Shown here in pieces: positions 21,679-41,316 of a DNA stretch of 64,000 nt; positions within the stretch are counted from its first letter, which is position 1, and each line of letters opens with the position of its first letter. The notes below the pieces were generated by a model, which made no database searches, was not told the DNA's origin, and saw only the letters and a list, made by a program, of their open reading frames with translations. The translations under genes and the position numbers were made by a program. The DNA comes from Lachnospiraceae bacterium MD335. GTDB lineage: Bacteria; Bacillota; Clostridia; Lachnospirales; Lachnospiraceae. The DNA is taken from assembly GCA_000403335.2 (NCBI GenBank), contig KE159631.1, positions 149,110 to 213,109 on the forward strand, in the 5' to 3' direction.

Positions 21679-22578
21679 GTGAGAATTCATATCAATCCGA
21701 TTGTGAAGAAAGATTTACAGGTGACGGCGCGCAGTATGCGTTTTTGCTGGGGTGTATTTGCCTACGAGGTGGTGCTTGTATTGGCGTTTTTGCTCGCGAT
21801 GGCGTTTATTCAGTCGCAGAGTAACAGCATCTACAGCGATAACAATATTTACAGCTATTTCATTGTGCTGTTTCCCGTGCTTGCGATTGCGCAGGTGTGC
21901 ATTGTGGCGCTGACTGTTCCGATAATCACGGCATCGTCGATTTCAGGCGAGCGGGAGCGCCAGACATTTGACATTATGCTCACGACGTGTATGTCGCCGT
22001 TTTCGATTGTGGTCGGGAAAGTGATTTCGGCGGTTATCCGCATTTTGTTTTTTGTGGTGGCGGGAATGCCGATTATGGCGCTTTCCTTTATCGCGGGCGG
22101 TCTTGGATGGAGCAGTCTGTTTTATTTTGTGCTTACGATTGTTCTGCTGTCGATTTTGTCGGGGAGCATTGGGATTTTGTGTTCCGCACTTTGCCGTAAG
22201 TCCATAACGGCGGTGATTTTGTCGTTTGCGTTTTATTTTGTGATTTATTTTATGACGTTTGTGCCGATGATTTTAAAGTATGTGTGGACCAAGGGGAAGA
22301 GCGCGGGCGAGTCCATGCTGTTTTTGCTCGCAAATCCGTTTGTGTTTTTTGAGGAGTTTTTCATGCAGATTATGAGAGGAGAATCGCTGTTTGGGACGGC
22401 AGGCTCAAACTTTTCCAGGCAGGAGGTCGGTTTTCTGACGTATCATTTGTCGCAGGGGAAAACGTGGCTGTTTTTGTCGGCGGCGTGTCTGTTTGTATTG
22501 TCGCTGGTCTTTATGATTGCTGCGGCATGGAAGATTAATCCGATGCATGGGACAGTTGGGAAGAAAGTAAGGAAGTAA
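21679..22578 (+). CDS. ABC-2 type transporter permease
   Basis: A 299-residue integral membrane protein with about six helices, pairing with the preceding ATPase. Typical ABC-2 permease features are the amphipathic N-terminus INPIVKKDLQVTARS, the extracellular loop after helix 1, and the segment ITASSISGERERQTFDIMLTTCMSPFSIVVGKV (about 87-118). The start codon is GTG at 21679 with GGAGG 6-7 nt upstream. The gap from the ATPase gene is filled by a Family II repeat. The substrate is unknown; in related operons the transporter works with MoxR/VWA proteins on envelope processes. Confidence 0.88.
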   Translation: MRIHINPIVKKDLQVTARSMRFCWGVFAYEVVLVLAFLLAMAFIQSQSNSIYSDNNIYSYFIVLFPVLAIAQVCIVALTVPIITASSISGERERQTFDIMLTTCMSPFSIVVGKVISAVIRILFFVVAGMPIMALSFIAGGLGWSSLFYFVLTIVLLSILSGSIGILCSALCRKSITAVILSFAFYFVIYFMTFVPMILKYVWTKGKSAGESMLFLLANPFVFFEEFFMQIMRGESLFGTAGSNFSRQEVGFLTYHLSQGKTWLFLSAACLFVLSLVFMIAAAWKINPMHGTVGKKVRK

Positions 22579-22579
22579 G

Positions 22580-22735
22580 GTTACTGTTCATACAGGACTT
22601 AGCATTTACTGCTAAGTCCGTACGGAAACGTACATGCAGCAAGTAAAAATCCATTTGCGCAACGAACTTGTTCGTTTTGCAAATTTTGCATGGATTTATA
22701 CTCGTTACTGGAACGGAGTGAACAATAACAGCGGT
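22580..22735 (+). repeat. Family I structured repeat, copy 3 (most complete)
   Basis: Outer inverted arms GTTACTGTTCA (22580-22590) and TGAACAATAAC (22719-22729) match at 10 of 11 positions. Inside are hairpin A, GGACTTAGCA / TGCTAAGTCC (22595-22604 and 22610-22619), and hairpin B, AAATCCAT / ATGGATTT (22647-22654 and 22690-22697), with a nested AACGAAC / GTTCGTT stem. The order is shared with the copies at 30813 and 36584, but hairpin A has a different sequence that still pairs perfectly. It fills most of the 299-bp gap between the permease and coiled-coil genes. Confidence 0.7.
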
Positions 22736-22877: not shown

Positions 22878-24218
22878 ATGGAACAAAACGAATTTCTGAA
22901 AATCATTAAAACATACCGCCGCAGGCTGAATATGGCAGAGTTTCTGAAAATCCTGTTGTTTGCGCTGTGCGTCGGTGCTGGCGCGGGGATTGTTCTGCAG
23001 GCAGCGGCTTTTATCACACCGATATATTATGTGAATCTATATGCCATTATGGCATTGCTTCTTGCAGTATTGGCGGCGGTTGCAGGCGCGTTTGTGAAAC
23101 GGATAAATATGGAGCAGGCGGCGCTTGCGATGGACCGTTTTGGCTTTGCGGAGCGGATTGTGACCGCTTATGAGAATTTGGCGCGGGAGGGCGATTTGAT
23201 TGTATTGCAGCGGGAGGACGCGATAGAAAAGCTGCGTGCGCATCAGGACAGGATACGCATTCCGCTGATGCCGCCTTTTCGGAAAATCTTTTTGCTTTTG
23301 GGAATGCTGGCGCTTGCAGCGGGGCTTGCGTTTGTGCCTTCTGTGACGAAGGAGCGCGCCTCGGAACAGCAGAGCGTGAAAAAGGAGGCAAAGGAGAAGA
23401 CGCAGGAGCTGGAGGAGCTTGTGGAAACCTTGGAGGAGCTTGCGCAGGAGGAGGCGCTGACGCCGGAGCAGCAGGCGCAATTACAGGAAATGATTGAGAG
23501 CCTTGAGTCGTCGCTATCCGAGTATCAGCAGGCGGTTTCGTCGCAGATGCTTGCGGCGGCGTCACAAAAGCTGGATTATAAGTATCAGAATATGGCGGAT
23601 CAAATGTCCTCCCTTGCGCAGAGCTTGCAGAACGGCGCGTCGGTGTCGGCGGCGTCTTTGGAGGCAATGCAGGAGATGGCACAGCAGCTGCAGAAAATGG
23701 GCGGGCAGCAGCTTGCGCAGAACGGACAAAATGGAAACGGGAATAATGGACAGAACGGTCAAGGCGAAAACGGTCAGAATGGGCAGAACGGACAAAACGG
23801 AAACGGGAATAATGGACAGAACGGACAGAACGGAAACGGTCAGGGCGGACAGGGACAGAATGGTCAAAGCGGTCAGGGGAACGGTCAGGACGGCGATGGT
23901 CAGGGCGGTCAAGGCAACGGTGACGGAAACGGCGGGAACGGCAGAGGCACGGGCAGCAGCGACAATGCGCATGATTATGTCAGTGTTCCGAATGCGATTG
24001 CGGACAGTGAAAATCTGACGGGAAACGCCGGAAATCATGATGATTCCGACTTTTTCCGCGCGCAGAACGGATTGAGCTGGGAAGGTGAGCATATTTCCCA
24101 CGAGGCGGTTATCGGCAGTTATGAGCAGAACGCTTATGAGGGCATTTCGGCGGGGAAATATCCAAGCGGTATGGAGGATATTATTAAGGAGTATTTTGCA
24201 AGCTTTAACACGCCATAA
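22878..24218 (+). CDS. Membrane-anchored coiled-coil protein with an Asn/Gly/Gln repeat tract
   Basis: A 446-residue protein. Two N-terminal membrane helices (about 22-48 and 50-74) and a third (about 136-156) lead to a long charged coiled coil (about 158-275, Glu/Gln-rich). A low-complexity tract of NGQ/GNG units follows (about 281-358), then a short ordered tail ending GMEDIIKEYFASFNTP. The layout resembles DUF4175-like membrane proteins found in MoxR/DUF58/VWA operons. The ribosome site is weak (AAAGAG). The Asn/Gly/Gln tract contains internal direct DNA repeats of about 66 bp and could change length. Function is unknown; a structural or tethering role is an inference. Confidence 0.78.
   Translation: MEQNEFLKIIKTYRRRLNMAEFLKILLFALCVGAGAGIVLQAAAFITPIYYVNLYAIMALLLAVLAAVAGAFVKRINMEQAALAMDRFGFAERIVTAYENLAREGDLIVLQREDAIEKLRAHQDRIRIPLMPPFRKIFLLLGMLALAAGLAFVPSVTKERASEQQSVKKEAKEKTQELEELVETLEELAQEEALTPEQQAQLQEMIESLESSLSEYQQAVSSQMLAAASQKLDYKYQNMADQMSSLAQSLQNGASVSAASLEAMQEMAQQLQKMGGQQLAQNGQNGNGNNGQNGQGENGQNGQNGQNGNGNNGQNGQNGNGQGGQGQNGQSGQGNGQDGDGQGGQGNGDGNGGNGRGTGSSDNAHDYVSVPNAIADSENLTGNAGNHDDSDFFRAQNGLSWEGEHISHEAVIGSYEQNAYEGISAGKYPSGMEDIIKEYFASFNTP
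23715..23948 (+). repeat. In-gene tandem repeat coding NGQ/GNG tract
   Basis: Short degenerate units such as AACGGACAGAACGGT recur. One block, starting CAGAACGGACAAAA, is repeated 66 bp later (23718 and 23784) with one difference. The tract lies wholly within the coiled-coil protein gene. Confidence 0.75.
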
Positions 24219-28984: not shown

Positions 28985-29956
28985 ATGAGCGAATTAGACA
29001 AAAACAGGCTGCAGGATGCGGCGTATATGGCACAGCGGATTGCGGCGTGTGAGGCGGAAATACAAAAAGGCATTATCGGACAGCATGAGGTCATCCGTCA
29101 GGTCATGCTTGCAATGCTGACAGGCGGAAACGTGCTGTTGGAGGGTATGCCGGGACTTGGAAAGACAAGACTGGTCAGCACCATCGGAAAGGTATTCGAC
29201 CTGCCGTTTAAGCGCATTCAGTTTACGCCCGATTTAATGCCGAGCGACGTAACAGGTACGAATATTATTATGAAGGGTGAACAGGGCAGCAGCTTCTCAT
29301 TTGTGCGCGGACCGATTTTTGCCAATTTAATCTTAGCGGACGAAATTAACCGTGCCACGCCGAAAACGCAGTCGGCGCTGCTTGAGGCAATGCAGGAGCA
29401 CACGGTTACGGTGGGCAGCGAAAGCCATACGCTTGACGCGCCGTTTTTTGTGCTTGCGACGCAGAATCCGATTGAAAACGAGGGCACATATCCGCTGCCG
29501 GAGGCGCAGCTTGACCGTTTTATGTTCAAGATTTTGGTTCGTTTTCCGTCAAAAGAGGAACTAAAAGGCATTGTCGGACTGACGGAAGGAGCGCAGCCGC
29601 CTGCGATTGAAAAGCAGATAGACGGTGAGGGACTGCTTGCGGCGCAGGCGTTGGTGAACCAAATCCCGATTGCAGAGGCGGTGATGGACTACCTGTTGGA
29701 GCTTGTCATGGCGACACATGCCCAAAACCCGTATATCCGCGAGGGCGCAAGCCCGAGAGCGGCGCAGGCGTTAATCCGCGCGGCGCGGGCGAAGGCATTT
29801 TTGGAGGGACGGTTTAACGTTTCGTTTCAGGATGTGCAGGAGGCGGCGTATCCTGTGCTGCGCCACCGTATTATTCCGAGCTTCGACGCAGTGAGTGCGG
29901 GGGTGTCGGAAGACGATATTATTAAGCAGATTTTAGATACAAATAAGAATACTTAA
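28985..29956 (+). CDS. MoxR-family AAA ATPase
   Basis: A 323-residue AAA+ ATPase of the MoxR group. Walker A GMPGLGKTR (about 58-66), Walker B ILADEINRATPKTQSALLEAMQE (about 117-139), sensor 1 LATQNPIENEGTYPLPEAQLDRF (about 158-180) and a sensor-2 region SPRAAQALIRAARAKAFLEGR. MoxR proteins are chaperone-like ATPases that act with VWA-domain proteins to assemble or activate complexes. Here the DUF58 gene follows by 17 bp and the VWA protein gene lies beyond an insertion. The start has a G-rich site (GGGGG). Confidence 0.93.
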   Translation: MSELDKNRLQDAAYMAQRIAACEAEIQKGIIGQHEVIRQVMLAMLTGGNVLLEGMPGLGKTRLVSTIGKVFDLPFKRIQFTPDLMPSDVTGTNIIMKGEQGSSFSFVRGPIFANLILADEINRATPKTQSALLEAMQEHTVTVGSESHTLDAPFFVLATQNPIENEGTYPLPEAQLDRFMFKILVRFPSKEELKGIVGLTEGAQPPAIEKQIDGEGLLAAQALVNQIPIAEAVMDYLLELVMATHAQNPYIREGASPRAAQALIRAARAKAFLEGRFNVSFQDVQEAAYPVLRHRIIPSFDAVSAGVSEDDIIKQILDTNKNT

Positions 29957-29973: not shown

Positions 29974-30867
29974 ATGAAACTCGACACCGCATTTTTCGAC
30001 AAGTTGTCCCGCCTGCGCTTATCGATGGGGCAAAGAACCTCCATGAACCTGACGGGAAACCGCAAATCCATGCAGAAAGGCACCTCAATGGAATTTTCGG
30101 ATTTCAGGGAATACATGACAGGCGACGACATCCGGCGCATTGACTGGAATGCTTACGGGCGGCTGGACAGGCTCTATGTGAAAGAATATATGGAAGAGAA
30201 AGAGGCGGTTATCTCGATTTTGCTTGACACAAGCGCTTCGATGGATTACGGCGCGAAGAAAAAGAGCGACCTTGCCTGTGCGCTCGCGGCGGCGCTCGCG
30301 TACTTAGGACTGAATAACATGGACCGCGTGTTTATCTATGACATGAAAAATATGCACCAACCATTTATGGCGGGCGGCGGAAAAAGGGCGCTGCCGCGCC
30401 TTGTGGAGTGGCTTTCGCAGTGCACCTTTGACGGGACAGCGGACATTGGTGCGGCGGTCAGGCAGCTCCCCGCGAAAGGGACAGGTATCACCGTGATTAT
30501 CAGCGATTTTTTGCAGGAGGAGTTTGTGCAGGACGACGCGGAGGAGGCGGCATCTGCGGTGACAAGGCTGCTGCGTTTCTTGGCATACAGACGGCAAAAG
30601 AGTGTGCTGCTGCATGTGCTTGCGGGCGAGGAGCTTGCGGTAAACCTTGCGGGCACGAAAAACTTCATAGACATGGAAGAGGAAAGTACGCTGCGCCTGA
30701 CGCTGGACGCGGCGAGCATTCGGGTGTATGAGAAGGCGCTTGGGGAATTTATCGGGCAGTTTAAACACGCGTGCGCCAAAAACGGAGCGTTTTACGCGGT
30801 GTGCAGTACGGAGCAGGACATTTATCAACTGATTTTACAGGATTTAAGGATGCTATATGATGTTTGA
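29974..30867 (+). CDS. DUF58 protein (MoxR partner)
   Basis: A 297-residue DUF58 protein with the hallmark EFSDFREYMTGDDIRRIDWNAYGRLDRLYVKEYMEEKE (about 34-71) followed by a VWA-like fold starting ILLDTSASMDYG (about 77-88). DUF58 proteins accompany MoxR ATPases in envelope-related operons. GGAGG lies about 9 nt upstream of the start. Its last 55 bp are also present, 92% identical within a longer repeat, at 36584, where they no longer belong to a DUF58 gene. This indicates the gene end was duplicated by an insertion event. Confidence 0.9.
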   Translation: MKLDTAFFDKLSRLRLSMGQRTSMNLTGNRKSMQKGTSMEFSDFREYMTGDDIRRIDWNAYGRLDRLYVKEYMEEKEAVISILLDTSASMDYGAKKKSDLACALAAALAYLGLNNMDRVFIYDMKNMHQPFMAGGGKRALPRLVEWLSQCTFDGTADIGAAVRQLPAKGTGITVIISDFLQEEFVQDDAEEAASAVTRLLRFLAYRRQKSVLLHVLAGEELAVNLAGTKNFIDMEEESTLRLTLDAASIRVYEKALGEFIGQFKHACAKNGAFYAVCSTEQDIYQLILQDLRMLYDV

Positions 30868-31018
30868 GAAAATTGTACAGACAGGTATTTGCACATTGCT
30901 GCAAATACCGTGCCAAAGTGCGGTGGCTTTCTGCAAAAATCCATCGCCAAAGGCGATTATGCATGGATTTTTGCCCGCAACAGTGAGCGTAGCGGAGATG
31001 TTGCAGTTTGAGCGTTTA
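30813..31018 (+). repeat. 206-bp direct repeat, left copy (contains a Family I structured repeat)
   Basis: Aligned by eye with 36584-36789 the two are the same length, have no gaps and differ at roughly 17 positions. The first 55 bp are the DUF58 gene end. The rest holds hairpin A, GGTATTTGCA / TGCAAATACC (30884-30893 and 30900-30909), hairpin B, AAAAATCCAT / ATGGATTTTT, and a third stem GCAACA / TGTTGC. The pair bounds a 5.6-kb insertion. Confidence 0.88.
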
Positions 31019-31366
31019 TTATCACTTGTATTTCCGGCATTAGGAACAGCGGGAGTGGAATCATTTCTGCCGGACAGGGAGCTTGCGGATTCGGTACTGC
31101 AGGTAAGTGTCAGTGCAAACAAACAGGTAGTGGAAGAGCTGAGAGGAGATGAAAATATGTGTCAGGCGTTATTGGAGATCATGGAACCGGAGATTAATAA
31201 GATAAAAGAAAATGTCAAGGTGGAGGTAACAAGAGAGGTAACAAGGAAGGGAATCAAAAGTATTGTAACGGTTTTGCGCGACTGCGGACAGGAGGATGCG
31301 GAAATCATAAAGGCGATCGTAAAAGAATACGGGGTGTCTGCGGAACAGGCGGCAGATTATTTATAA
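30857..31366 (+). CDS. Chimeric ORF: repeat-coded N-terminus fused to an Rpn-like tail
   Basis: A 169-codon frame overlapping the DUF58 stop. Residues 1-55 (MMFEKIVQTGICTLLQIP...) are coded by the direct repeat and match the first residues of the VWA protein at 36631. Residues 56-72 may be a decayed piece of the VWA gene. From about residue 90 on (ELRGDENMCQALLEIMEPEINKIKENVKVEVTREV...AEIIKAIVKEYGVSAEQAADYL) it looks like the C-terminal tail of Rpn-type PD-(D/E)XK recombination-promoting nucleases. There is no nuclease domain. Probably a recombination product; whether it is translated is unclear. A terminator follows at 31403. Confidence 0.45.
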   Translation: MMFEKIVQTGICTLLQIPCQSAVAFCKNPSPKAIMHGFLPATVSVAEMLQFERLLSLVFPALGTAGVESFLPDRELADSVLQVSVSANKQVVEELRGDENMCQALLEIMEPEINKIKENVKVEVTREVTRKGIKSIVTVLRDCGQEDAEIIKAIVKEYGVSAEQAADYL

Positions 31367-31402
31367 AATCCATGCATATGCAACAAGGCGGATGGGGACA
31401 GG

Positions 31403-31438
31403 CAGCAGTGAATCTTTAAAAGGTTTGCTGCTGTTTTT
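31403..31438 (+). terminator. Intrinsic terminator
   Basis: Stem CAGCAG / CTGCTG (31403-31408 and 31428-31433), extended inward by wobble and A-T pairs, followed by TTTTT. It would stop transcription from the MoxR-DUF58 genes before the VWA gene, now 5 kb downstream. Confidence 0.75.
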
Positions 31439-31520
31439 ATGCACATGGGCATCCGAATGAAATATGTCAGCAATCAACCACCGCTTAAAAATGCATTTCG
31501 TTTTGATTCTTGATGCAGCT

Positions 31521-31548
31521 TTGATGCACGATTTTGATAAAATATAAA
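31521..31548 (+). promoter_or_regulatory. Possible promoter of the lipoprotein pair
   Basis: TTGATG (31521-31526), a 16-nt spacer and TATAAA (31543-31548), 22 bp before the leader-peptide start. The motif TTGATGCA occurs twice just here (about 31510 and 31521). Confidence 0.45.
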
Positions 31549-31570
31549 AGATGCAAACAGGAGGAATTTT

Positions 31571-31612
31571 ATGTTTTTTTTGAACTGCCAAAGAGAAAAA
31601 GGGATATCATGA
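31571..31612 (+). CDS. 13-residue leader peptide overlapping the next gene
   Basis: An AGGAGGAATTTT site precedes ATG at 31571. The frame reads MFFLNCQREKGIS and stops at TGA 31610-31612. The stop overlaps the ATG of the following gene as ATGA. This is the strongest ribosome site in the region, while the main gene has only AAGGGA, itself inside this mini-frame. Translational coupling through the leader is therefore likely. No attenuator hairpin is seen. Confidence 0.5.
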   Translation: MFFLNCQREKGIS

Positions 31613-34059
31613 AAAATAGAAAATATAAAAACAGAAGATACATTGTGGCAATCGCCGCGATGATTCTGACTGCGTGTATCGTATGGCGGACGATATCACC
31701 GAAAAACGCGCCGGATATTGTCAGAATAGAAGAAAACGCAGACCATAGGACGATATTGGATGATGCGAGAGAACGTATGGCAATACTGAACAACAGCACG
31801 CCATACCAAACCATTCCAATGACCAAAAATAAAGATACATATATAATGCCTGTTGATGCGGAATTAAAACAAACCGACAACACCCTGCACTACGGCGCTC
31901 TTTGCATTACGCTCCTCGACGTAAAGACTGTGCTCCAGCCTGCCTCCGAAACGGACGATAAATCCGCCTGTGTCATTGACCTAGTCGGCGCGGAGCAGAT
32001 AAGGGACATGGACGGCTGCTACGGCACAAGGGGACCATTGCCGCCGCGCCTTTGGCTTTCACATTACGGCGCGTCATATGAAAATGAATGGCAGCTTGCA
32101 AGCTTACTGCTTGACATTCTGCCCGATACCACACTGCGTTTTTGCGACAATACGGGCGACAAGCTTCACTACCTGTTCACCTATGAGAAGCCATACAAAA
32201 ACGGTTACGTACTGGTGTGCGGCAGTGATGTCTGCATTGTGGAGGAGGTTTCAGCGGAGAGCGATTACAGTTTTGACGCACTGCTGAAAGGCGGATGGGT
32301 TCATTGGGATAACACCATGCAGAGGGTTGATACAAGAGATAGGAATGAAGTGTATATTGAAGTCAAAAAATGCAAAACAGAACAGGATGGTACCCTGTTG
32401 GCGGCGCAGACACTCCACACAGACGGTACGCGCAGAATTTCCCTCTATCGGGACGGTCACTTCATGGCTCCGTTTATGGAATATTCCTTTGCAAAATGCC
32501 CTGCGGAAATCGGATTTGAGGACTATAATTTTGACGGGAGCATGGACATGATTGCATTCCCAAAGGAATCTCCGACAACGGTATTGCTTTGGAACACAGA
32601 CAAAAAAACATTTGAGGCAGCGCAAATGCCCGAAGAATTTCCAACCTTTTCTTGGGACTTCGAGTGCTATCCCGAAACAAAAACCATTTGGTCGTACGAT
32701 ACGGATTATGTGGTAAACGCCGACGGTGCGACTTACTGGAACCGATATGACAATACGGAAATGCTTTGGCAGTGGGAAGGGACGACCTTGACAAAAAAGC
32801 GTGAATGTACCGCGCAAGTGCGGGAGGAAGCGGTGCGGATTTGCGCCTATGCATATCATAATGAAGACAAAACCGTTTTGTACGATGAAATTGTCCCCAT
32901 TGCGGAGTGGGAGCAAAACAGCGATACGGTACAGGCATGCTACCGCAAATTCTATGAAAAAGTCCTTCCGGCGAAAAATACAGGAATGCTCCATAAGATA
33001 GACTACAAGGAGGAAGCCATTCCGCAGGGGCTTTTGGACAGCGTTTCAGAAGCCATACTGGAAAGTAAAGAAAACGTGCTTGTGGATACCCTTGGGATTG
33101 GCAAAGAATTAACAAAGGAAAAAGTCCTCGCCATTGCCAAGGATAATCTCTCCCTGCGCTATGATGTCGAATGTGCGGAAGCGGAGGGGGATTACACAAT
33201 GCTTTTGGTTGACGGGGACAACGACGGCATTTCGGATATTGTGGCGGAGATTTATTATGGCGGAACCGGCGGTTATACGGAATATGTTTTTTATCAGGGG
33301 CAGGAGGACGGCACTTTTGAAAAGACGTGTACTTATGATGCCGTACATCAAAACTTTATCTTTATCCGCTATGACGAAAAAAATTATTTATGCCGCAGGC
33401 TTTATGACTACGACACAAAGGAATATAGCGGCATCAGCCTGACATGCTATGTTGACGGCGTGCAGGCGGAGACATGGAATTTGATGTTTGCGCCCAAATC
33501 GTATGATTTTAAAATTACCGAATGTGCATCAAAAAAGTATAGGACGCTGGCGGAGGAAACATTGGAAAATGCCGGAGTTTACAAAGAAAAAATAGATCAA
33601 TACGCCGACATCATCGGCAGTGCGGAGGAAAAATTACCGCTTGGGAAGCACGAGTACCGCTGCGATTTGAACAATGATGACGCATTGGAGCAGTATGAGA
33701 AATCCGTTTGGACACCGAGCAATCTTGCGATGCGGGAATATATCCATTTTTCCGGCAAGGATACGGGAACAGATGCCTCTAGGGATGCAATCCAAGCGGT
33801 TGAAGATGCAATCCAAACGGTAGAAGGATTCCCGATTATGATGTGGGCGGATTTGTATGAAAACAAGACAATCGTTCACGTCATTTCCCGAACGGGGCTA
33901 GAGCACGATGACAACGCAAAAAAGCCGACAGGGCTTGATGACTTTGCAATTACGGCATTCTTAATAGAAGGAACACGCACACAGACCGTATACAAAATAA
34001 CTGCGGACGCAGTGTACACCATACGTGAGGAGTACGATAACAACACTGTTCAACGATAG
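31609..34059 (+). CDS. Membrane-anchored protein with EF-hand-like repeats (paralogue 1)
   Basis: An 816-residue exported protein. The N-terminal signal has a basic start, a hydrophobic core and a lipobox-like LTAC (residues 20-23), so it may be a lipoprotein. The body is beta-rich and contains FG-GAP/EF-hand-like calcium-binding loops: DYNFDGSMD (about 305), DGDNDGISDIVAEIYYGG (about 535) and CDLNNDDALEQ (about 685). It is a clear paralogue of the next gene: both have the segment G.L/FPPR(L/I)WL, similar loops in the same order, and similar ends. No known family name can be given. The pair sits inside the repeat-flanked insertion. The start at 31609 is coupled to the leader peptide. Confidence 0.72.
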   Translation: MKNRKYKNRRYIVAIAAMILTACIVWRTISPKNAPDIVRIEENADHRTILDDARERMAILNNSTPYQTIPMTKNKDTYIMPVDAELKQTDNTLHYGALCITLLDVKTVLQPASETDDKSACVIDLVGAEQIRDMDGCYGTRGPLPPRLWLSHYGASYENEWQLASLLLDILPDTTLRFCDNTGDKLHYLFTYEKPYKNGYVLVCGSDVCIVEEVSAESDYSFDALLKGGWVHWDNTMQRVDTRDRNEVYIEVKKCKTEQDGTLLAAQTLHTDGTRRISLYRDGHFMAPFMEYSFAKCPAEIGFEDYNFDGSMDMIAFPKESPTTVLLWNTDKKTFEAAQMPEEFPTFSWDFECYPETKTIWSYDTDYVVNADGATYWNRYDNTEMLWQWEGTTLTKKRECTAQVREEAVRICAYAYHNEDKTVLYDEIVPIAEWEQNSDTVQACYRKFYEKVLPAKNTGMLHKIDYKEEAIPQGLLDSVSEAILESKENVLVDTLGIGKELTKEKVLAIAKDNLSLRYDVECAEAEGDYTMLLVDGDNDGISDIVAEIYYGGTGGYTEYVFYQGQEDGTFEKTCTYDAVHQNFIFIRYDEKNYLCRRLYDYDTKEYSGISLTCYVDGVQAETWNLMFAPKSYDFKITECASKKYRTLAEETLENAGVYKEKIDQYADIIGSAEEKLPLGKHEYRCDLNNDDALEQYEKSVWTPSNLAMREYIHFSGKDTGTDASRDAIQAVEDAIQTVEGFPIMMWADLYENKTIVHVISRTGLEHDDNAKKPTGLDDFAITAFLIEGTRTQTVYKITADAVYTIREEYDNNTVQR

Positions 34060-34098
34060 AGAAACTGGCAAAAACAGTAGAAGGGAGTACAAACACAG

Positions 34099-36474
34099 AT
34101 GAAACCGTTATTATTCCATTTGAACCAAAAGACCGTGCTGCTGACGGGCATCATAATCCTTGCGCTGCTTCTTGCCGCCTGCAGCACACAGCCGCCCGCA
34201 TTGCAGGAAACGGCACAAAGCACGGTCGCGTCAGCCGAGGCTGTTTCGAACGCTGACGAGCTGCATACCGATAGTGGTCAGGAAGCGCAGACTGCGGAAG
34301 ACAAAGCCGAACCGGAATTGTCGGCGTCATTTGCGGCGATAGAGCGGCTTGACACAAAACTTGTCATAGAGACAGATGCAGTGTGTTACGGCAATCTTCG
34401 TATTACGCTACCCAACGGTGTCACCGCACAGCAGCAGGAGATGGCTGGCAGCGCAGCCGTGATAGACCTCATAGGAGCGGAAAAAATTGGGGAGGGGGAG
34501 GGATATGGCAATAGCGGACCGTTTCCGCCGCGCATATGGCTTACAAATTACCATGCGGAATACGGCAATATCATGGAGCTTTTCAGTGCATTGCTGGATT
34601 TGCTGCCCGACACTGTTCTTAGCGAGCGATATGCATGGGGAAAGGAACGCTGTTACCTGCTCAGCTATGAAAAGCCCGATATCAATGGTTACATACTGAT
34701 ATATGGGAACGATGTCTATCTTGTGGAAGAGCTTTCGGAAGAAAGTGATTATAGTTTTGGAGGGCTGCTTGATGACAAGGCAGTCCGGGGGGGAAACGGC
34801 ATCTGCGATTTTGGCGCCAGGTATCGCAATGCGGATAAACTATACAGCAAAATCAATGTGCAGGACGATATGTCCTTTTTGGTAAGCCAAGACATAATCA
34901 GAGACAGGATGCGGGTAATTCTGTTGTTTGAGGACGGGTATTTTACTTCTCTGTATCAAAATATTGCATATGGGGAATGGAACGACGCTCCTGCATTTGA
35001 GGACTGCAATTTTGACGGCTGTCCTGATATGGCAATATCGGAAACAAAGATTTACCTTTGGAATGCAGACAAAAAAGTGTATGAGGCAGCGCAGATACCG
35101 GAGGAGTTTTCGGTGCATTCATGGAATGCAGAATACTATCCGCAGGCACAGAGCATATGGACTTATAATGTCGAATATGCAAAGGATGCTGAAGGGAAAT
35201 CGTCCGCGGATGCGTTTGACCAAACGGAGAAGATTTGGAAATGGGAAGGGACTGCGTTGGTGAAAAAGCGTGAATGTGCGGCAAACGTGCGCGAGGACAG
35301 CGTGCGGATATGCGCTTATGAGGACAGCGCTGAGCATGTGCTGTTTGATGAAACTTTCACAATCGAGGAGTGGAAACAAAACAGTTTAAGCGTGCAAAAG
35401 CGGTATCAGCAGTTCTACGCCGGAATGCTTCCCGAAGAAAACGACGGAAACCTCCACAAAATCGACGAGAATCAAAGAGAAAATGAAGCCATACCACAGG
35501 CGCTGTTAGACGTTATTACAAAATCCATACTTGACGGCACGGAATTGGAAACGTTAAAGGGACTGATGAATGACAAAGAATTAACAAAAGAGGAGGTCCT
35601 CGCGCTTGCCAAAGACAACATAGCACTGCGCAGTGATGTGATACGGGCGGACAGATTAGGGCACTACATTATGGTAATGGCAGACGGGGATAATGACGGT
35701 ATTTTGGATCTTGTCGCAGAGGAATATTTTGGCGGCTCGGCAGGCTTTACGGAGTATGTTTTCTATAAGGGACAGGAAGATGGTACCTATCAGAAGACAA
35801 GCAGCTATGACGCCGTAGAAGAAGAGTTTGGCATGATTTCCTATGAGGGGAAAAATTACCTGTGCCGCACACGGTACGATTATAGCAAAAAGATATATAA
35901 CGGTATCAGTTTGGCGTGTTATGTGGACGGGGTGCAGGTGGAATCGGCAGACTTGATGCTTTTCCCCGAACAATATGATACAAAGCTTGCCGAACGCGCA
36001 AAGGAGGATTACAGGGCGCTTGCGCAGGACATCCTGCAAAACAGCCTTTTCTTTAAGAAACAAATTGACGCGCATGAAGCGATTGTCGGAAGCTGTGAGG
36101 AGCTGTCGCCTTTGGAGGAAGATCACCAATACCAGTGCGACTTGGACAATGACAAGGTGATGGAGCATTATTGTAAATCCATTTGGGAGCCTAGCAACAT
36201 GGGAACACATGAAAGCCTGATTTTATATGGTGATGGGGAAGGAATTGAGCATGTGCAGAATGCAATAAAGGCTTTGAGAGGGCAACCGATAATGATGTGG
36301 GTTGAACCGTTTGCAGAAGAAAATGTTGTCAATGTCATTTCTTTGACAGGGCTGCATGACTTTGAGGTAACTGGATTGCTGCTGCATGGCGCAGATTTTA
36401 AAACCATGTACCGGATTACCGCAGAAGTGACATATGGTGTTAAATGTGAAATCGGCACTCAGATGAATGAATAA
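34099..36474 (+). CDS. Lipoprotein with EF-hand-like repeats (paralogue 2)
   Basis: A 791-residue lipoprotein. The signal ends in the lipobox LAAC (Cys28), followed by a Ser/Glu-rich linker. The body aligns with the preceding gene: SGPFPPRIWLTNYHAEYGN, DCNFDGCPDMAIS, ADGDNDGILDLVAEEYFGGSAGFTEYVFYKGQEDG and CDLDNDKVMEHY occur in the same order, giving three calcium-binding-like loops. It starts 39 bp after paralogue 1 with GAAGGGAG about 13 nt before the ATG, so the two are one operon and a tandem duplication. It is probably on the outer face of the membrane. Function is unknown. Confidence 0.78.
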   Translation: MKPLLFHLNQKTVLLTGIIILALLLAACSTQPPALQETAQSTVASAEAVSNADELHTDSGQEAQTAEDKAEPELSASFAAIERLDTKLVIETDAVCYGNLRITLPNGVTAQQQEMAGSAAVIDLIGAEKIGEGEGYGNSGPFPPRIWLTNYHAEYGNIMELFSALLDLLPDTVLSERYAWGKERCYLLSYEKPDINGYILIYGNDVYLVEELSEESDYSFGGLLDDKAVRGGNGICDFGARYRNADKLYSKINVQDDMSFLVSQDIIRDRMRVILLFEDGYFTSLYQNIAYGEWNDAPAFEDCNFDGCPDMAISETKIYLWNADKKVYEAAQIPEEFSVHSWNAEYYPQAQSIWTYNVEYAKDAEGKSSADAFDQTEKIWKWEGTALVKKRECAANVREDSVRICAYEDSAEHVLFDETFTIEEWKQNSLSVQKRYQQFYAGMLPEENDGNLHKIDENQRENEAIPQALLDVITKSILDGTELETLKGLMNDKELTKEEVLALAKDNIALRSDVIRADRLGHYIMVMADGDNDGILDLVAEEYFGGSAGFTEYVFYKGQEDGTYQKTSSYDAVEEEFGMISYEGKNYLCRTRYDYSKKIYNGISLACYVDGVQVESADLMLFPEQYDTKLAERAKEDYRALAQDILQNSLFFKKQIDAHEAIVGSCEELSPLEEDHQYQCDLDNDKVMEHYCKSIWEPSNMGTHESLILYGDGEGIEHVQNAIKALRGQPIMMWVEPFAEENVVNVISLTGLHDFEVTGLLLHGADFKTMYRITAEVTYGVKCEIGTQMNE

Positions 36475-36583
36475 TACATATGTCAGCGAATCATAAGCCG
36501 CTTTATTGAATAAAAATTTCTCGGTTTAGCTTGGAAACTTTCATGGAAATTCACGATAAAGTATGATAAAATAATGCTGTTTG

Positions 36584-36789
36584 GCAGGACATTTATCAAC
36601 TGATTTTTTAGGATTTAAGGATGTTATATAATGTTTGAGAAAATTGTTCAGACAGGTATTTGCACTTTGCTGCAAATACCGTGCGAAAGTGTAGTGGCTT
36701 TTGGCAAAAATCCATCGCCAAAGGCGATTGTGAATGGATTTTTGCCCGCAGCAGTGAGCATAGCGGAGCTGTTGCAATTTGAGAGTTTA
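36584..36789 (+). repeat. 206-bp direct repeat, right copy (contains a Family I structured repeat)
   Basis: Right copy of the repeat at 30813-31018, same length without gaps. It starts with the last 55 bp of a DUF58-like gene end (with its stop region altered), then hairpin A GGTATTTGCA / TGCAAATACC (loop changed), hairpin B and the third stem. The VWA gene frame begins within it. Confidence 0.88.
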
Positions 36790-39700
36790 ATGCCGTTGGC
36801 GTTTTTGGCAGCGGTTCCAATCATTATTTTGTTGTATTTGCTAAAGCCAAAGGGCGTGGATTACCGGATTTCTTCGAATTTACTTTGGAAAAAGCTGCTC
36901 AAAAACGAGCAGTCGCGGACGTTTTTCGAGAAATTTGTCCACAACATTTTAATGTACTTACAGATTTTGATAATTATACTGCTTGTGATTGCCCTGATGT
37001 CGCCGTTTATCCGCGTGGACAACCGCGGTGGGGGCAGGAAAATCCTGTTGGTCGATACAAGCGCAAGTATGCAGCATGTCGGACATTACGGCGATAGCCG
37101 GGGAAAGAGCCGCCTTACAGAAGCAATAGAACTGATGTGCGATGCGGTGCAGACGGCGCAGGACACACAATTTTGCGTTGTGACGGCGGATGCAGTTGGC
37201 GTAAAGCTTTTGGCGGTGGACATGACAGATACGGAGAGCCTGATACAGACGCTGAAAAGCTTGGAGTGCAGTGACGGCGGAGGCAATCTTGCGCAGGCGC
37301 AGGGGATTTTGGATACGCTTGTGGGGGATACGGCGGAAAACGCGGCGGATTTGCTTGTTTTTACGGACGGCAGCGGCGCGGCGGCGTTTGAGGAGCTGCG
37401 CGGCGCCGAAAAGGAGCTTTATGTCGTGGGTGACGCTGCTTCCAATGTGGCAAACGAGTACACCGTGTATACAGAGCGGGAGGACGGAACGTATGACGTG
37501 ATTGTGAGCGTGGCGAATTACAGCGATGCGGAAGCATCGTTTGACGTTGGTTTGTATGACGGTGAAGACGCGCTGATTGCGCTGAAACAGATGCGTCTTG
37601 CGCCGTCGGAGAACGCGTCGTGCCTGTTTGAGGCTGCGGACTGGCGGGGTAAGACGCTTACGTCCCGTCTTGACAATATTTCGTTTGACGGTGCGGCGGG
37701 CGACAGCCTTGCGGCGGACAATGTTTCACGGGCAGTTAAGAGCCGTCAGAATAAAATACGCGGACTGCTTGTCGGAAACGGCAACACATTTTTGGAAAAG
37801 GCATACGTTGCAGTGACGGGTGATACGATTACGAAATCCCAAACCGACGGTGCGGCGGACGGCGTGCAGGATACGGGCATTTCCAAGCGCACGCCGCTCA
37901 AGGAAATGGGTTACAATGTGGTGATTTACGACGCAGGACAGACGCCGCAGAACAGTGAGGGCAATCGTCTGATTTTTGGCGACGGCGGTGCCAAACCTGT
38001 CGAAACGCTTGAAAACGTGGTGCTTGACATGACGGACTGCGATTTGACAGCGGGGCTTTCAGGCTTTACGGTTGGCGTAAACAAGGCATACTGCTTTGCG
38101 CTGCCCGAGGGGGCGCAGAGCTTTTTGACATACGACGGAAAGTGTGTCGGCTATTATGGCGAGCGGGACGGACACAAGGAGGTGGTTGTCGGCTTTGACA
38201 TTCGGGAGTCTGATTTTCCGCTGCGGGCGGAGTTTCCGATTTTTCTTGCAAATGCCATGATTTATCTCTCCGACACGTCTTGGTTGGCAACAAATGTTTA
38301 TTATGCGGGCGAGGAAATTGCATTGCAGCCTTGGGCGGAATTGGACAGGACGCAGTTTGAAAGCCGTCCGGCTAAGGCGGGGCTGTATTCACTTGGAAAC
38401 GAGGAATATCGGGAGTCTTATGTCGTGCGTTTTCAGACGGCGACGGAGTCCGACGGCAGAGTGACGGCGGAGTCGGTCGGCGGTTCGGGGGAGGCGCGCC
38501 TGCAAAAGGTGAAGCAGACGCTGCGCAATGTGTTTTTACTGCTTGCCCTGCTGCTTTTGGTCGTGGAGTGGATTGTCTATGTGCGCCAAATGTGTTACCG
38601 CGGGAAGTTCTACCTTGTGGTGCGCGGTGCGGTGCTTTTGTGCGTGTTGCTTGCGCTGCTTGGCATTACGCTGAAAAAGGGCAGTTCTCAGACGGCGACG
38701 GTGTTTGTCGTGGATTTGTCGAACAGCAATGCGGAGCATTTGGAGCGCATGGAGCAGTATTTGCAGGAAACGGTCGGCAAAATGCCTTCGGGGAATGTTT
38801 ACGGGATTGTGACCTTTGGAAAAGATACACTGGTGGAGCAGTTTTTGACGGACGGGACGCATTACGGGGGGCTGATGACGCTGCCCGAGAAGGCGGCGAC
38901 GAACTTCGAGGACGCTGTTTCCAAGGCGCTTACACTGTTATCAGGCGATTACAGAAAACGCCTTGTGGTGCTGACGGACGGTAAAGAAACGCGGGGCGAC
39001 ATTCAAAATATGGCACAGGCATTGACGGCGAGTCAGGCGGAGTTTCTGACACTGCTTTACGAGAACGAGGAAACGCCGGATGCTTATATTGATAATGTTA
39101 TGCTTCCGTCGTATCTGCACCCGAATGACAAGTATTCGATTACGGTGCTTGTGGAGAGCAATTACGATACGGACGCGGTGATTGCGCTGTACAACGGAAG
39201 CAGTCAGACGGCGGCGAACAGCGTGCACTTAAACAAAGGGAGCAACCGCTTTGCATTCAGCGCGCAGGTTGACACGGGCACACAAAGCGGCGCAATGGAA
39301 AATCTGCGCGTGCAGGTTCAGGCACAGGGGGATACCTGCGCTGAAAATGACACGTTCAGCGCGTACTCCGTCGTGGAGGCGGTGCCGAAAATCCTTGTGA
39401 TTTCGGGACGTGATACGAGCGTTTCGGGCTTTGCGTCCGTATTGGGCGCGGCAGGCTGCGATTACAGCGTTGTTTCAGCGTTGAATGCGCCGGACAGTAT
39501 CAATGCCATGCTCGATTACAAGTCGATTATTTTGGTGGACACATATATTGACGATTTGCCGACCGGATTTTTGGAAAATTTGGAGACATATGTGAAGGAT
39601 TACGGATGCGGTTTTATCTGCTGCGGCGGTGAGGACAGCTTTGCGCTTGGCGGTTATCGGGATACGGCGCTGGAAACGGTGCTGCCCGTGGACATGCAGC

Positions 39701-41316
39701 TGCGCAGCGTGAATGAAGTGCCGTCAATGGCGATGGTGATGGTGATTGACCATTCGGGCAGTATGAGCGGTGCGCTGGATGGTTCGGGTATCACGAATTT
39801 GGACATTGCAATCCGGGCGGCGACGGTGGCGGCGGACAATCTGCGCGATACGGATTATGTCGGAGTACTGACGTTCGACGACAAATATACATGGCAGGTG
39901 GAATTGCAGACGGCGGAAGATAAAACGGCGGTCAAAGACGCGATTAAGCAGATTAAAGAGGGCGGCGGAACGACGATTAAGCCTGCGCTTTTGGAGGCAT
40001 GCAAGGCGCTTGAGGACTGTGACGCGTCCGTGAAGCATGTGGTGCTTTTGACGGACGGCATGGGAGAAACAGGCAATTATACAGATGTGATCAGCGATTA
40101 TACGGCAAACGGCATTACGCTTTCGACGGTGGCGGTCGGGACGGGTTCCGACACAAAGCTTTTGAAAAGGCTGGCGGACAACTGCGGCGGCAGATATTAT
40201 TATTCGGATATTTCGAGCGATATTCCAAAGATTTTCGCACAGGAGGTTTTTTTGGGCGGTGACAGCTATATCCAAAACGGCGATTTCCCGCTTGCGGTTC
40301 GGGGCGGTCATGAGCTGACGCACGGTCTGTTTGCTGACGGGTGGCCTTCGCTTTACGGGTATGTTGCCGCGACACCGAAGACGGCGTCGAATCCGGTGAT
40401 TGTCTCTGCGGATAAGGAAGACCCGATTTTGACGGTATGGCAGTACGGGCTTGGCAGGACTGCCGCCTGGAACAGCGATGTCACGGGCGAGTGGAGCGGC
40501 GCGTTTTCGGGGAAGGACGATTATGTGCAGCTTTGGAAACGCATTGTGGACTATTCAACGGGAAATGCCGATATGGGCGAGGACAGCGTAAACGTGGTGA
40601 CGGCTGGCGAGCAGACCGAGGTCGTTTATCAGACGGGCGATTACGGCAGCGGGACAGAGATTCTTGTGACGATGATTGCCCCCGACGGGGAGAGCAGCGA
40701 GGCGAAGCTGCATGCGACGGCGCCGGGGAAATATACGGCGCAGCTTCCTACGTCTCAGACGGGATTGTATCATTTTAATATCCGGCGTACGGAGGGCGGC
40801 GAAATTCAGAGCTATATGACGACCGCGGCGGCAGTGCAGTTCTCAGACGAATATAAGTTCGATGTGAGCGCGGCGCCGTATCTGAGATTTGCCGAGCAGT
40901 ACGGGAAGGTGATTACGGAGCAGGAGAATGTCTGGACGCGCATTACGGCGGGGGCAAAGGAGCGTTATCCGCTGACGAACTGGCTGACAGCGTTTGCGAT
41001 TTGCCTGTTTTTGGCGGATGTTGCGATGCGGCGGTTTCAGTATGTGCCAAAGTTTGGCGGCGTGACGGGGAAATGGAAGAAGAATGCGGCGGCTGGTGCT
41101 GATGCGGGGGCGTCCGGAGAAATGAAGCAGGCGCAACCGGCAGTGCAGCCAGGACAGTTAGAGCAGAGTGCGGAAACTGAAACAAAGAAGGAGTCTGACC
41201 CCGCCCCCCAAAAGGTTAAAAAGCAGAAACGGGAAAAAAAGGCGAAGCAGTCGGAGCAGGTGCTGGATACTTCGCAGTTGTTGAAGAAGAAGGATGAGCG
41301 GAATGGGGAAGGCTGA
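36631..41316 (+). CDS. Giant BatA/VWA-domain membrane protein
   Basis: 1561 residues from the first ATG. Residues 1-46 are coded by the structured repeat and are unlikely to be ancestral. Then comes a BatA-like start (FESLMPLAFLAAVPIIILLYLLKPKG, about 50-75), a second helix (107-125) and a first VWA fold with LLVDTSASM (139-147). Further helices lie at about 632-682, followed by a second VWA-like region (ATVFVVDLSNSN). Next are a glutamine-amidotransferase-like domain (about 930-1030) and a VWA domain with a complete MIDAS D1040-HSGSMSG. A C-terminal helix (about 1450) and a Lys/Glu-rich tail end the protein. It should work with the MoxR and DUF58 proteins. The start is uncertain: 36631 has only AAGGAT upstream. 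In the left repeat copy the matching codon to residue 47 is ATG (here CTG), hinting that the original start was there. Confidence 0.85.
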   Translation: MFEKIVQTGICTLLQIPCESVVAFGKNPSPKAIVNGFLPAAVSIAELLQFESLMPLAFLAAVPIIILLYLLKPKGVDYRISSNLLWKKLLKNEQSRTFFEKFVHNILMYLQILIIILLVIALMSPFIRVDNRGGGRKILLVDTSASMQHVGHYGDSRGKSRLTEAIELMCDAVQTAQDTQFCVVTADAVGVKLLAVDMTDTESLIQTLKSLECSDGGGNLAQAQGILDTLVGDTAENAADLLVFTDGSGAAAFEELRGAEKELYVVGDAASNVANEYTVYTEREDGTYDVIVSVANYSDAEASFDVGLYDGEDALIALKQMRLAPSENASCLFEAADWRGKTLTSRLDNISFDGAAGDSLAADNVSRAVKSRQNKIRGLLVGNGNTFLEKAYVAVTGDTITKSQTDGAADGVQDTGISKRTPLKEMGYNVVIYDAGQTPQNSEGNRLIFGDGGAKPVETLENVVLDMTDCDLTAGLSGFTVGVNKAYCFALPEGAQSFLTYDGKCVGYYGERDGHKEVVVGFDIRESDFPLRAEFPIFLANAMIYLSDTSWLATNVYYAGEEIALQPWAELDRTQFESRPAKAGLYSLGNEEYRESYVVRFQTATESDGRVTAESVGGSGEARLQKVKQTLRNVFLLLALLLLVVEWIVYVRQMCYRGKFYLVVRGAVLLCVLLALLGITLKKGSSQTATVFVVDLSNSNAEHLERMEQYLQETVGKMPSGNVYGIVTFGKDTLVEQFLTDGTHYGGLMTLPEKAATNFEDAVSKALTLLSGDYRKRLVVLTDGKETRGDIQNMAQALTASQAEFLTLLYENEETPDAYIDNVMLPSYLHPNDKYSITVLVESNYDTDAVIALYNGSSQTAANSVHLNKGSNRFAFSAQVDTGTQSGAMENLRVQVQAQGDTCAENDTFSAYSVVEAVPKILVISGRDTSVSGFASVLGAAGCDYSVVSALNAPDSINAMLDYKSIILVDTYIDDLPTGFLENLETYVKDYGCGFICCGGEDSFALGGYRDTALETVLPVDMQLRSVNEVPSMAMVMVIDHSGSMSGALDGSGITNLDIAIRAATVAADNLRDTDYVGVLTFDDKYTWQVELQTAEDKTAVKDAIKQIKEGGGTTIKPALLEACKALEDCDASVKHVVLLTDGMGETGNYTDVISDYTANGITLSTVAVGTGSDTKLLKRLADNCGGRYYYSDISSDIPKIFAQEVFLGGDSYIQNGDFPLAVRGGHELTHGLFADGWPSLYGYVAATPKTASNPVIVSADKEDPILTVWQYGLGRTAAWNSDVTGEWSGAFSGKDDYVQLWKRIVDYSTGNADMGEDSVNVVTAGEQTEVVYQTGDYGSGTEILVTMIAPDGESSEAKLHATAPGKYTAQLPTSQTGLYHFNIRRTEGGEIQSYMTTAAAVQFSDEYKFDVSAAPYLRFAEQYGKVITEQENVWTRITAGAKERYPLTNWLTAFAICLFLADVAMRRFQYVPKFGGVTGKWKKNAAAGADAGASGEMKQAQPAVQPGQLEQSAETETKKESDPAPQKVKKQKREKKAKQSEQVLDTSQLLKKKDERNGEG

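Follow-up and report, generated by a model that had tools for sequence, protein, structure and literature searches.

A MITE in the DUF58–VWA junction and a 5.6-kb segment between two diverged copies of that junction in Lachnospiraceae bacterium MD335

In the gut bacterium Lachnospiraceae bacterium MD335, a MoxR–DUF58–VWA gene cluster is split by an inserted segment of about 5.6 kb, which lies between two copies of the DUF58–VWA junction that each carry a 136-bp MITE. Among the genomes examined, only this one has such a segment between two MITE-bearing junction copies. Comparison with related genomes shows a MITE insertion, a 5.6-kb insertion and two junction lineages at this site. The best explanation, and one we consider probable, is that the MITE inserted first and that the segment then arrived by recombination between diverged junction alleles. 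The parts are of known kinds, and the in-frame MITE is unusual.

The locus was studied in a window of 64,000 nucleotides (the whole stretch of DNA analysed, contig KE159631.1, positions 149,110 to 213,109) within a 424,905-bp contig, and the genes and repeats mapped here all lie on its + strand. The cluster's first gene encodes a MoxR-type AAA ATPase (28985–29956; Pfam AAA_3, 1.2e-61) and is followed by the DUF58 gene (29974–30867; Pfam DUF58, 4.6e-31). Beyond the split lies a VWA/BatA-like gene (36631–41316), 1561 aa long if its start is upstream of the MITE, with Pfam matches to BatA (PF07584, 6.4e-10, residues 49–125) and VWA_2 (3.2e-38). The order MoxR, DUF58, BatA/VWA is that of other MoxR–DUF58–VWA/BatA clusters, but here the cluster has the 5.6-kb split and an in-frame MITE at the start of the VWA gene.

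A first-pass annotation of this DNA had described a gapless 206-bp direct repeat at 30813–31018 and 36584–36789, with about 17 differences. We counted 18 mismatches (91.3% identity; E ~2e-81 in a within-window search), and a weaker similarity between the copies extends over 227 nt (88%). The boundaries had been read correctly: the first 55 bp are the 3' end of DUF58 (30813–30867 in the left copy) and the last bases are the start of VWA. The repeat is therefore composite, consisting of the DUF58 end, the 136-bp MITE (located by covariance model at 30869–31004 in the left copy, C1, and at 36640–36775 in the right copy, C2) and the first VWA codons. By sequence comparison, the MITE makes up most of the repeat and predates the 5.6-kb insertion. 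In C1, faint VWA similarity continues to ~31039, and in C2, the displaced DUF58 3' end has a stop in the old frame. The 8-mers flanking the MITE are TGTTTGAG and AGTTTGAG in C1 (7/8 matching) and TGTTTGAG and AATTTGAG in C2 (6/8 matching); at the junction of the relative G025 they are TATTTGAG and AATTTGAG (7/8 matching, by eye).

That DUF58 and VWA genes normally adjoin, as the annotation had stated, held throughout our comparisons. VWA comes directly after DUF58 in 80/80 named loci (the best 80 of 100, a set in which at least one record prefix is present twice: L130, L145), and the gap between them is <30 bp in 72, 30–120 bp in 6 and 146 bp, owing to a MITE, in 2. The junction is likewise uninterrupted in 20/20 genus relatives, two of which (G025 and G004) have the MITE; this set comes from the 21/38 genus genomes, own included, with a DUF58 match (E ≤ 1e-60), and it overlaps with the named loci. 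Since VWA directly follows DUF58 in all of these, the 5.6-kb segment is a derived insertion, as the annotation had proposed. Close relatives with the lipoprotein gene pair between DUF58 and VWA were looked for, and none was found, while the uninterrupted junction with a single repeat copy was found in G004 and G025.

In 16/18 MITE-free genus relatives the two genes overlap, with the stop of DUF58 falling among the first codons of VWA (ATGATATTTGAGAG and variants; L026 and L027 differ). In G025, G004, C1 and C2, the 136-bp MITE sits within this overlap, and these junctions have TTTGAG on both sides of the MITE, with GTTGAG on the left in G004. G025 and G004 each have exactly one MITE, at the same spot. 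The G031 junction has no MITE. In G031 the cluster carries a further insertion, this one located between MoxR and DUF58 (L034:6093-9990) and containing ORFs with cohesin, dockerin and sortase domains.

When the inner part of the repeat was used as a query, it found divergent copies dispersed in the MD335 genome. A ten-copy alignment revealed a structured element with internal hairpins, and in 17/32 consensus pairs at least one sequence has both sides changed with pairing kept. The covariance model built from this alignment gave 51 matches in the own genome (E up to 0.001), and there are matches in 31/38 genus genomes and in 21/150 family genomes (own included in both; E up to 1e-6 and stricter filters for the family). 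Fifty of the own matches, including C1 and C2 and leaving out the 51st (contig C13:237447-237610), are 101–159 bp in length and without a transposase gene. Many copies have the terminal inverted repeats GTAACAGTTCAG / CTGAACTGTTAC or close variants, with ends that read GTAACAGTTCAG or GTTACTGTTCA or variants, and these repeats are degenerate in the DUF58–VWA copies and some others. Target duplications of 8 bp flank 30/50 own copies (18 exact and 12 more at 7/8), counting adjacent copies that sometimes share one duplication. In other genus genomes, sampled at one copy per genome from 27/28 further genomes with matches, 23/27 copies have duplications at 7 or 8 of 8 (16 exact). On these sequence features we class the element as a MITE, since it is short, lacks a transposase, has inverted-repeat ends and constant 8-bp duplications, and occurs in many dispersed copies. 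It resembles known MITEs in all these respects and in sharing its ends with IS66, but it differs from them in that its internal hairpins show the compensatory changes at 17/32 pairs.

A third MITE copy in the window (22580–22729; covariance model, 101.2 bits) lies between an ORF ending at 22578 and an ORF starting at 22878; its flanks were checked and have no clear 8-bp duplication. In the own genome (G000), three MITEs (L229, L232, L235; contig C1:890586-891009, starting at 890586, 890730 and 890874) stand head to tail with the same 8-bp separators, as if by repeated insertion at one target. The own genome also has very short pairs of these terminal repeats, measuring 45–57 bp from one end to the other (contigs C12:79201-79245, C12:379538-379594 and C1:728001-728057), which are possibly minimal MITE derivatives. 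Rfam gave no match at the gathering threshold in 25–45 kb of the window. A known structured RNA was rejected as an identity for the element: at four element loci searched with E up to 1, the sole match was mir-994, which lies beside the element and below the gathering score. A literature search found no paper on this Lachnospiraceae MITE family, which is no proof of absence.

IS66 elements generally have 8-bp duplications and GTAA ends, although a literature search for these two features found no paper. IS66 transposase matches occur in 14/38 genus genomes, with 11 in the own genome. At 2/30 IS66 loci examined, both in relatives, facing ends are combined with exact 8-bp duplications. One (L266, in G003) is 2251 bp long, with ends GTTACTGTTCAC, duplication GCTGCTTT and a 571-aa ORF that matches PF03050 (Pfam). 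The other (L276, in G029) is 2323 bp long, with duplication TATCAATA and ends GTTACTTTTCACGG, as in MITE copies L250–L252. Three more IS66 loci (L271, L283 and L287) have similar ends with no duplication flagged. Because complete-looking IS66 elements share its ends and 8-bp duplications, the MITE is most likely IS66-derived. Within the own genome, 7/11 matches were examined with 1.5-kb flanks and at none of them are such ends accompanied by 8-bp duplications, and a search there for exact 11-base ends found no facing pair 260–15,000 bases apart. At another place in the own genome (contig C15:36406-40749), and likewise in G001, parts of an IS66 transposase lie ~3.5 kb apart, perhaps through interruption by another element.

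At the DUF58–VWA junction, the MITE plus its duplication comes to 144 bp, i.e., 48 codons, so the VWA frame is kept, and this stretch is open in C2, G004 and G025. Pfam places the start of the BatA domain at residue 49 of the extended VWA ORF. A ribosome-binding-like AAGGA and an ATG can be seen by eye upstream of the MITE, in-frame ATG, GTG or TTG codons occur inside it (ATG in G004 and G025), and an ATG between the MITE and the BatA domain is present in C2 and G025 and missing in G004. Because G004 has no ATG in that interval, at least part of its MITE is probably translated; translation of the full 48 MITE residues is possible in MD335, G025 and G004. A second open frame runs through the MITE in C1, C2 and G025. 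Among the other MITE copies, a sense frame is open in 10/75 (frame-neutral in 3 of them) and 65/75 have stops in all sense frames, in a count where the orientation of 9/27 genus copies (L200–L208) follows a motif rule and may be wrong.

Differences at second codon positions are few between junction copies (1–2 of 9–17 per pair). In 6/6 junction-copy pairs, non-synonymous codons are at least as numerous as synonymous ones, which counts against purifying selection on the MITE. Scored as open frames rather than gene calls, sense frames of >90 aa span just C1 and C2 among the 50 own copies, and insertion into genes was not found to be a rule of the family. Antisense open frames of 98–244 aa span own copies L211, L217 and L224 and genus copies L185, L186 and L195; by eye, the L217 frame faces a LytTR-like ORF on the opposite strand. 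A passage of PMC10969869 describes in-frame fusions caused by intragenic MITEs as not unusual, with Rickettsia palindromic elements (RPE) as the extreme case. That passage has the RPE as a ~150-bp element in frame within its host gene, as is the case here, but here a single site is involved (C1 and C2 of 50 own copies). We tentatively raise the idea, which we think rather unlikely, that the MITE has been co-opted as coding sequence, giving BatA/VWA proteins of three species up to 48 extra N-terminal residues in an RPE-like manner outside Rickettsia. The start codons inside the MITE and the codon counts lower its odds.

The inserted segment contains the tail of an unnamed gene, two lipoprotein-like genes and a non-coding end. 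The tail (31073–31366) is the 3' remnant of a gene that has lost its 5' part, is in frame with the C1 MITE and has a 79% DNA match, from 31073, to G031 contig C17, where it corresponds to the C-terminus of a complete 298-aa gene (L069). It had been labelled 'Rpn-like', which we withdraw as unsupported: Pfam and NCBIfam gave no named nuclease family for either the fragment or the complete 298-aa relative. A terminator noted at ~31407–31440 can be seen by eye but does not appear in the output of the scan that gave the promoter-like sites described below. A ~40-bp dispersed repeat (31434–31473), different from the MITE, has many matches across genus genomes. Gene A (31609–34059, 816 aa) and gene B (34099–36474, 791 aa) are ORFs that had been called paralogous lipoprotein genes, which fits their 48% identity and the lipobox-like sequence in each (by eye). 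Neither has a Pfam match, and NCBIfam XAC2610 was below cut-off. The non-coding right end (36475–36583) has a weak likeness to the region upstream of gene A, and a weak site at 36544–36572 is a candidate promoter before VWA, in a scan where promoter-like sites were not above chance (14 found vs 10.9 ± 3.0 expected).

Relatives of the lipoprotein-like genes occur in 19/38 genus genomes (own included). In G031, gene A and gene-B remnants adjoin a Na/H-exchanger (antiporter) gene, and in G025 a gene-B tail does so. In the own genome, the Na/H-exchanger gene (Pfam) adjoins a MutY-like gene and no lipoprotein sequence matched there. Judged by these neighbourhoods, the lipoprotein-like genes therefore stand at a different place in the own genome than in G031 and G025. 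G025 also has a similar gene pair, at 93% DNA identity, on a contig of 3,278 bp. G031 and the own genome also share an unrelated palindrome-like repeat of 89 bp (L061:8366-8454 vs L092:4759-4846; 94% similarity), which in G031 stands between gene A and the remnants of gene B. Among the loci compared, the right end (36474–36590) and 31019–31080 had no match outside the own locus that could indicate a donor, and no molecule that might have served as donor, with the segment attached to a DUF58–VWA junction, was found among the genomes examined.

The two repeat copies have different closest relatives. In a tree of the 206 bp, C1 is placed with G025 and C2 with G004 (97/95), and a sister relationship of C1 and C2 is rejected (p-AU 0.0117). 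Site patterns in 30857–31021 favour this pairing at 5 sites, against 2 and 1 for the other two. Two changes common to C1 and G025 look derived relative to the six other family copies in the alignment. Because the left copy groups with G025 and the right with G004, we conclude that C1 and C2 are not twins born recently in this genome. The argument draws on 206 bp with some six informative sites, and a single small tract of gene conversion could have produced this pattern as well. The annotation had named duplication of a structured repeat as one route of insertion: there is a structured element, the MITE, but the grouping of C1 and C2 with different junction lineages speaks against a fresh mutual duplication.

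The flanking genes are also mosaic. MoxR is G025-like (94–97% in five comparison windows from 29041), as is VWA (88–98% in 21/23 comparison windows, with the last two at 85 and 80%). DUF58 from ~30274 is G031-like (93–98%; tree support 99/98), so recombination between lineages has acted at the cluster, and the own DUF58 beside C1 resembles that of the MITE-free G031. VWA downstream of C2 is G025-like while C2 itself is G004-like, a combination that takes at least two events to explain. G031, without a MITE, and G004, with one, group together in the VWA tree (support 85/88). To account for this, the MITE must have been lost, removed by allelic replacement or transferred, and any of these may have happened in this group.

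The sequence of events that we favour begins with a step that comparison shows: an IS66-like 136-bp MITE inserted into the DUF58-stop/VWA-start overlap, with an 8-bp duplication, in a lineage that MD335 shares with G025 and G004. The left duplicate preserves the DUF58 stop, and the 144-bp insertion leaves the VWA frame open. About 5.5 kb of DNA now separates two MITE-bearing junction copies, and we infer that this segment arrived when two diverged junction alleles underwent homologous recombination. For example, a molecule made up of the lipoprotein segment and a short piece of a second junction allele could have integrated by a single crossover, which would leave ~206–227 bp of shared sequence bracketing the segment. 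The segment may be able to pop out again between these copies; no sign of this was seen. Homologous recombination had been one of the suggested routes, and it is the best-fitting one given the different junction lineages of C1 and C2. VWA, severed from MoxR–DUF58, would presumably rely on read-through or a local promoter.

The main rival is local duplication with later exchange. The junction would have been doubled in this lineage, either in tandem or by staggered repair that captured ectopic DNA, and the copies would then have drifted apart. This would give the same anatomy and sharp edges with no need for a donor, and the seven changes private to C1 in 30857–31021 are what one would expect of an unconstrained copy. 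However, it predicts the C1/C2 sisterhood that the tree test rejects, and the two derived-looking changes shared by C1 and G025 also count against it; we regard it as a serious but distinctly less probable account. A chimera, with two strains fused at the MITE during assembly or binning, deserves thought because MITEs are repeats and the locus was read from an assembled contig. However, C1 runs past its MITE into the VWA start, C2 is preceded by 55 bp of DUF58, and the region is well inside its contig; with the joins lying outside the MITE, a chimera is unlikely.

In a composite transposon, two MITEs would have carried the intervening genes into the junction. Two MITEs in the same orientation do bracket genes here, and stretches flanked by MITEs can be mobilised, as part of PMC10969869 states. 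Here, however, VWA sequence lies inside the left MITE and DUF58 sequence inside the right one, so host junction sequence separates each MITE from the segment and there is no MITE-bounded unit. The MITEs are not outermost, and each has its own host junction, neither of which a composite would carry. This host sequence inside the bracket excludes a composite MITE transposon, to which we give very little credence. Less credible still, to the point of being negligible, is that the lipoprotein pair always stood between DUF58 and VWA and was lost elsewhere. The pair is missing there in every one of the 80 named loci and 20 genus relatives, which contradicts an ancestral arrangement, and the lipoprotein-like genes of G031 and G025 adjoin the antiporter gene instead. 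Insertion of the MITE followed by recombination between diverged junction alleles is therefore our preferred reading.

The MITE family reported here is structured, widespread in Lachnospiraceae and likely descended from IS66 elements. The locus also offers, at one site, a natural series of states: the bare junction, the junction with a single MITE, and the junction with the MITE and a 5.6-kb insertion. The mixed ancestry of C1 and C2 is a caution that a bracketing direct repeat need not be a recent duplication. Finally, the in-frame MITE provides a test case for the incorporation of a mobile element into a membrane protein.
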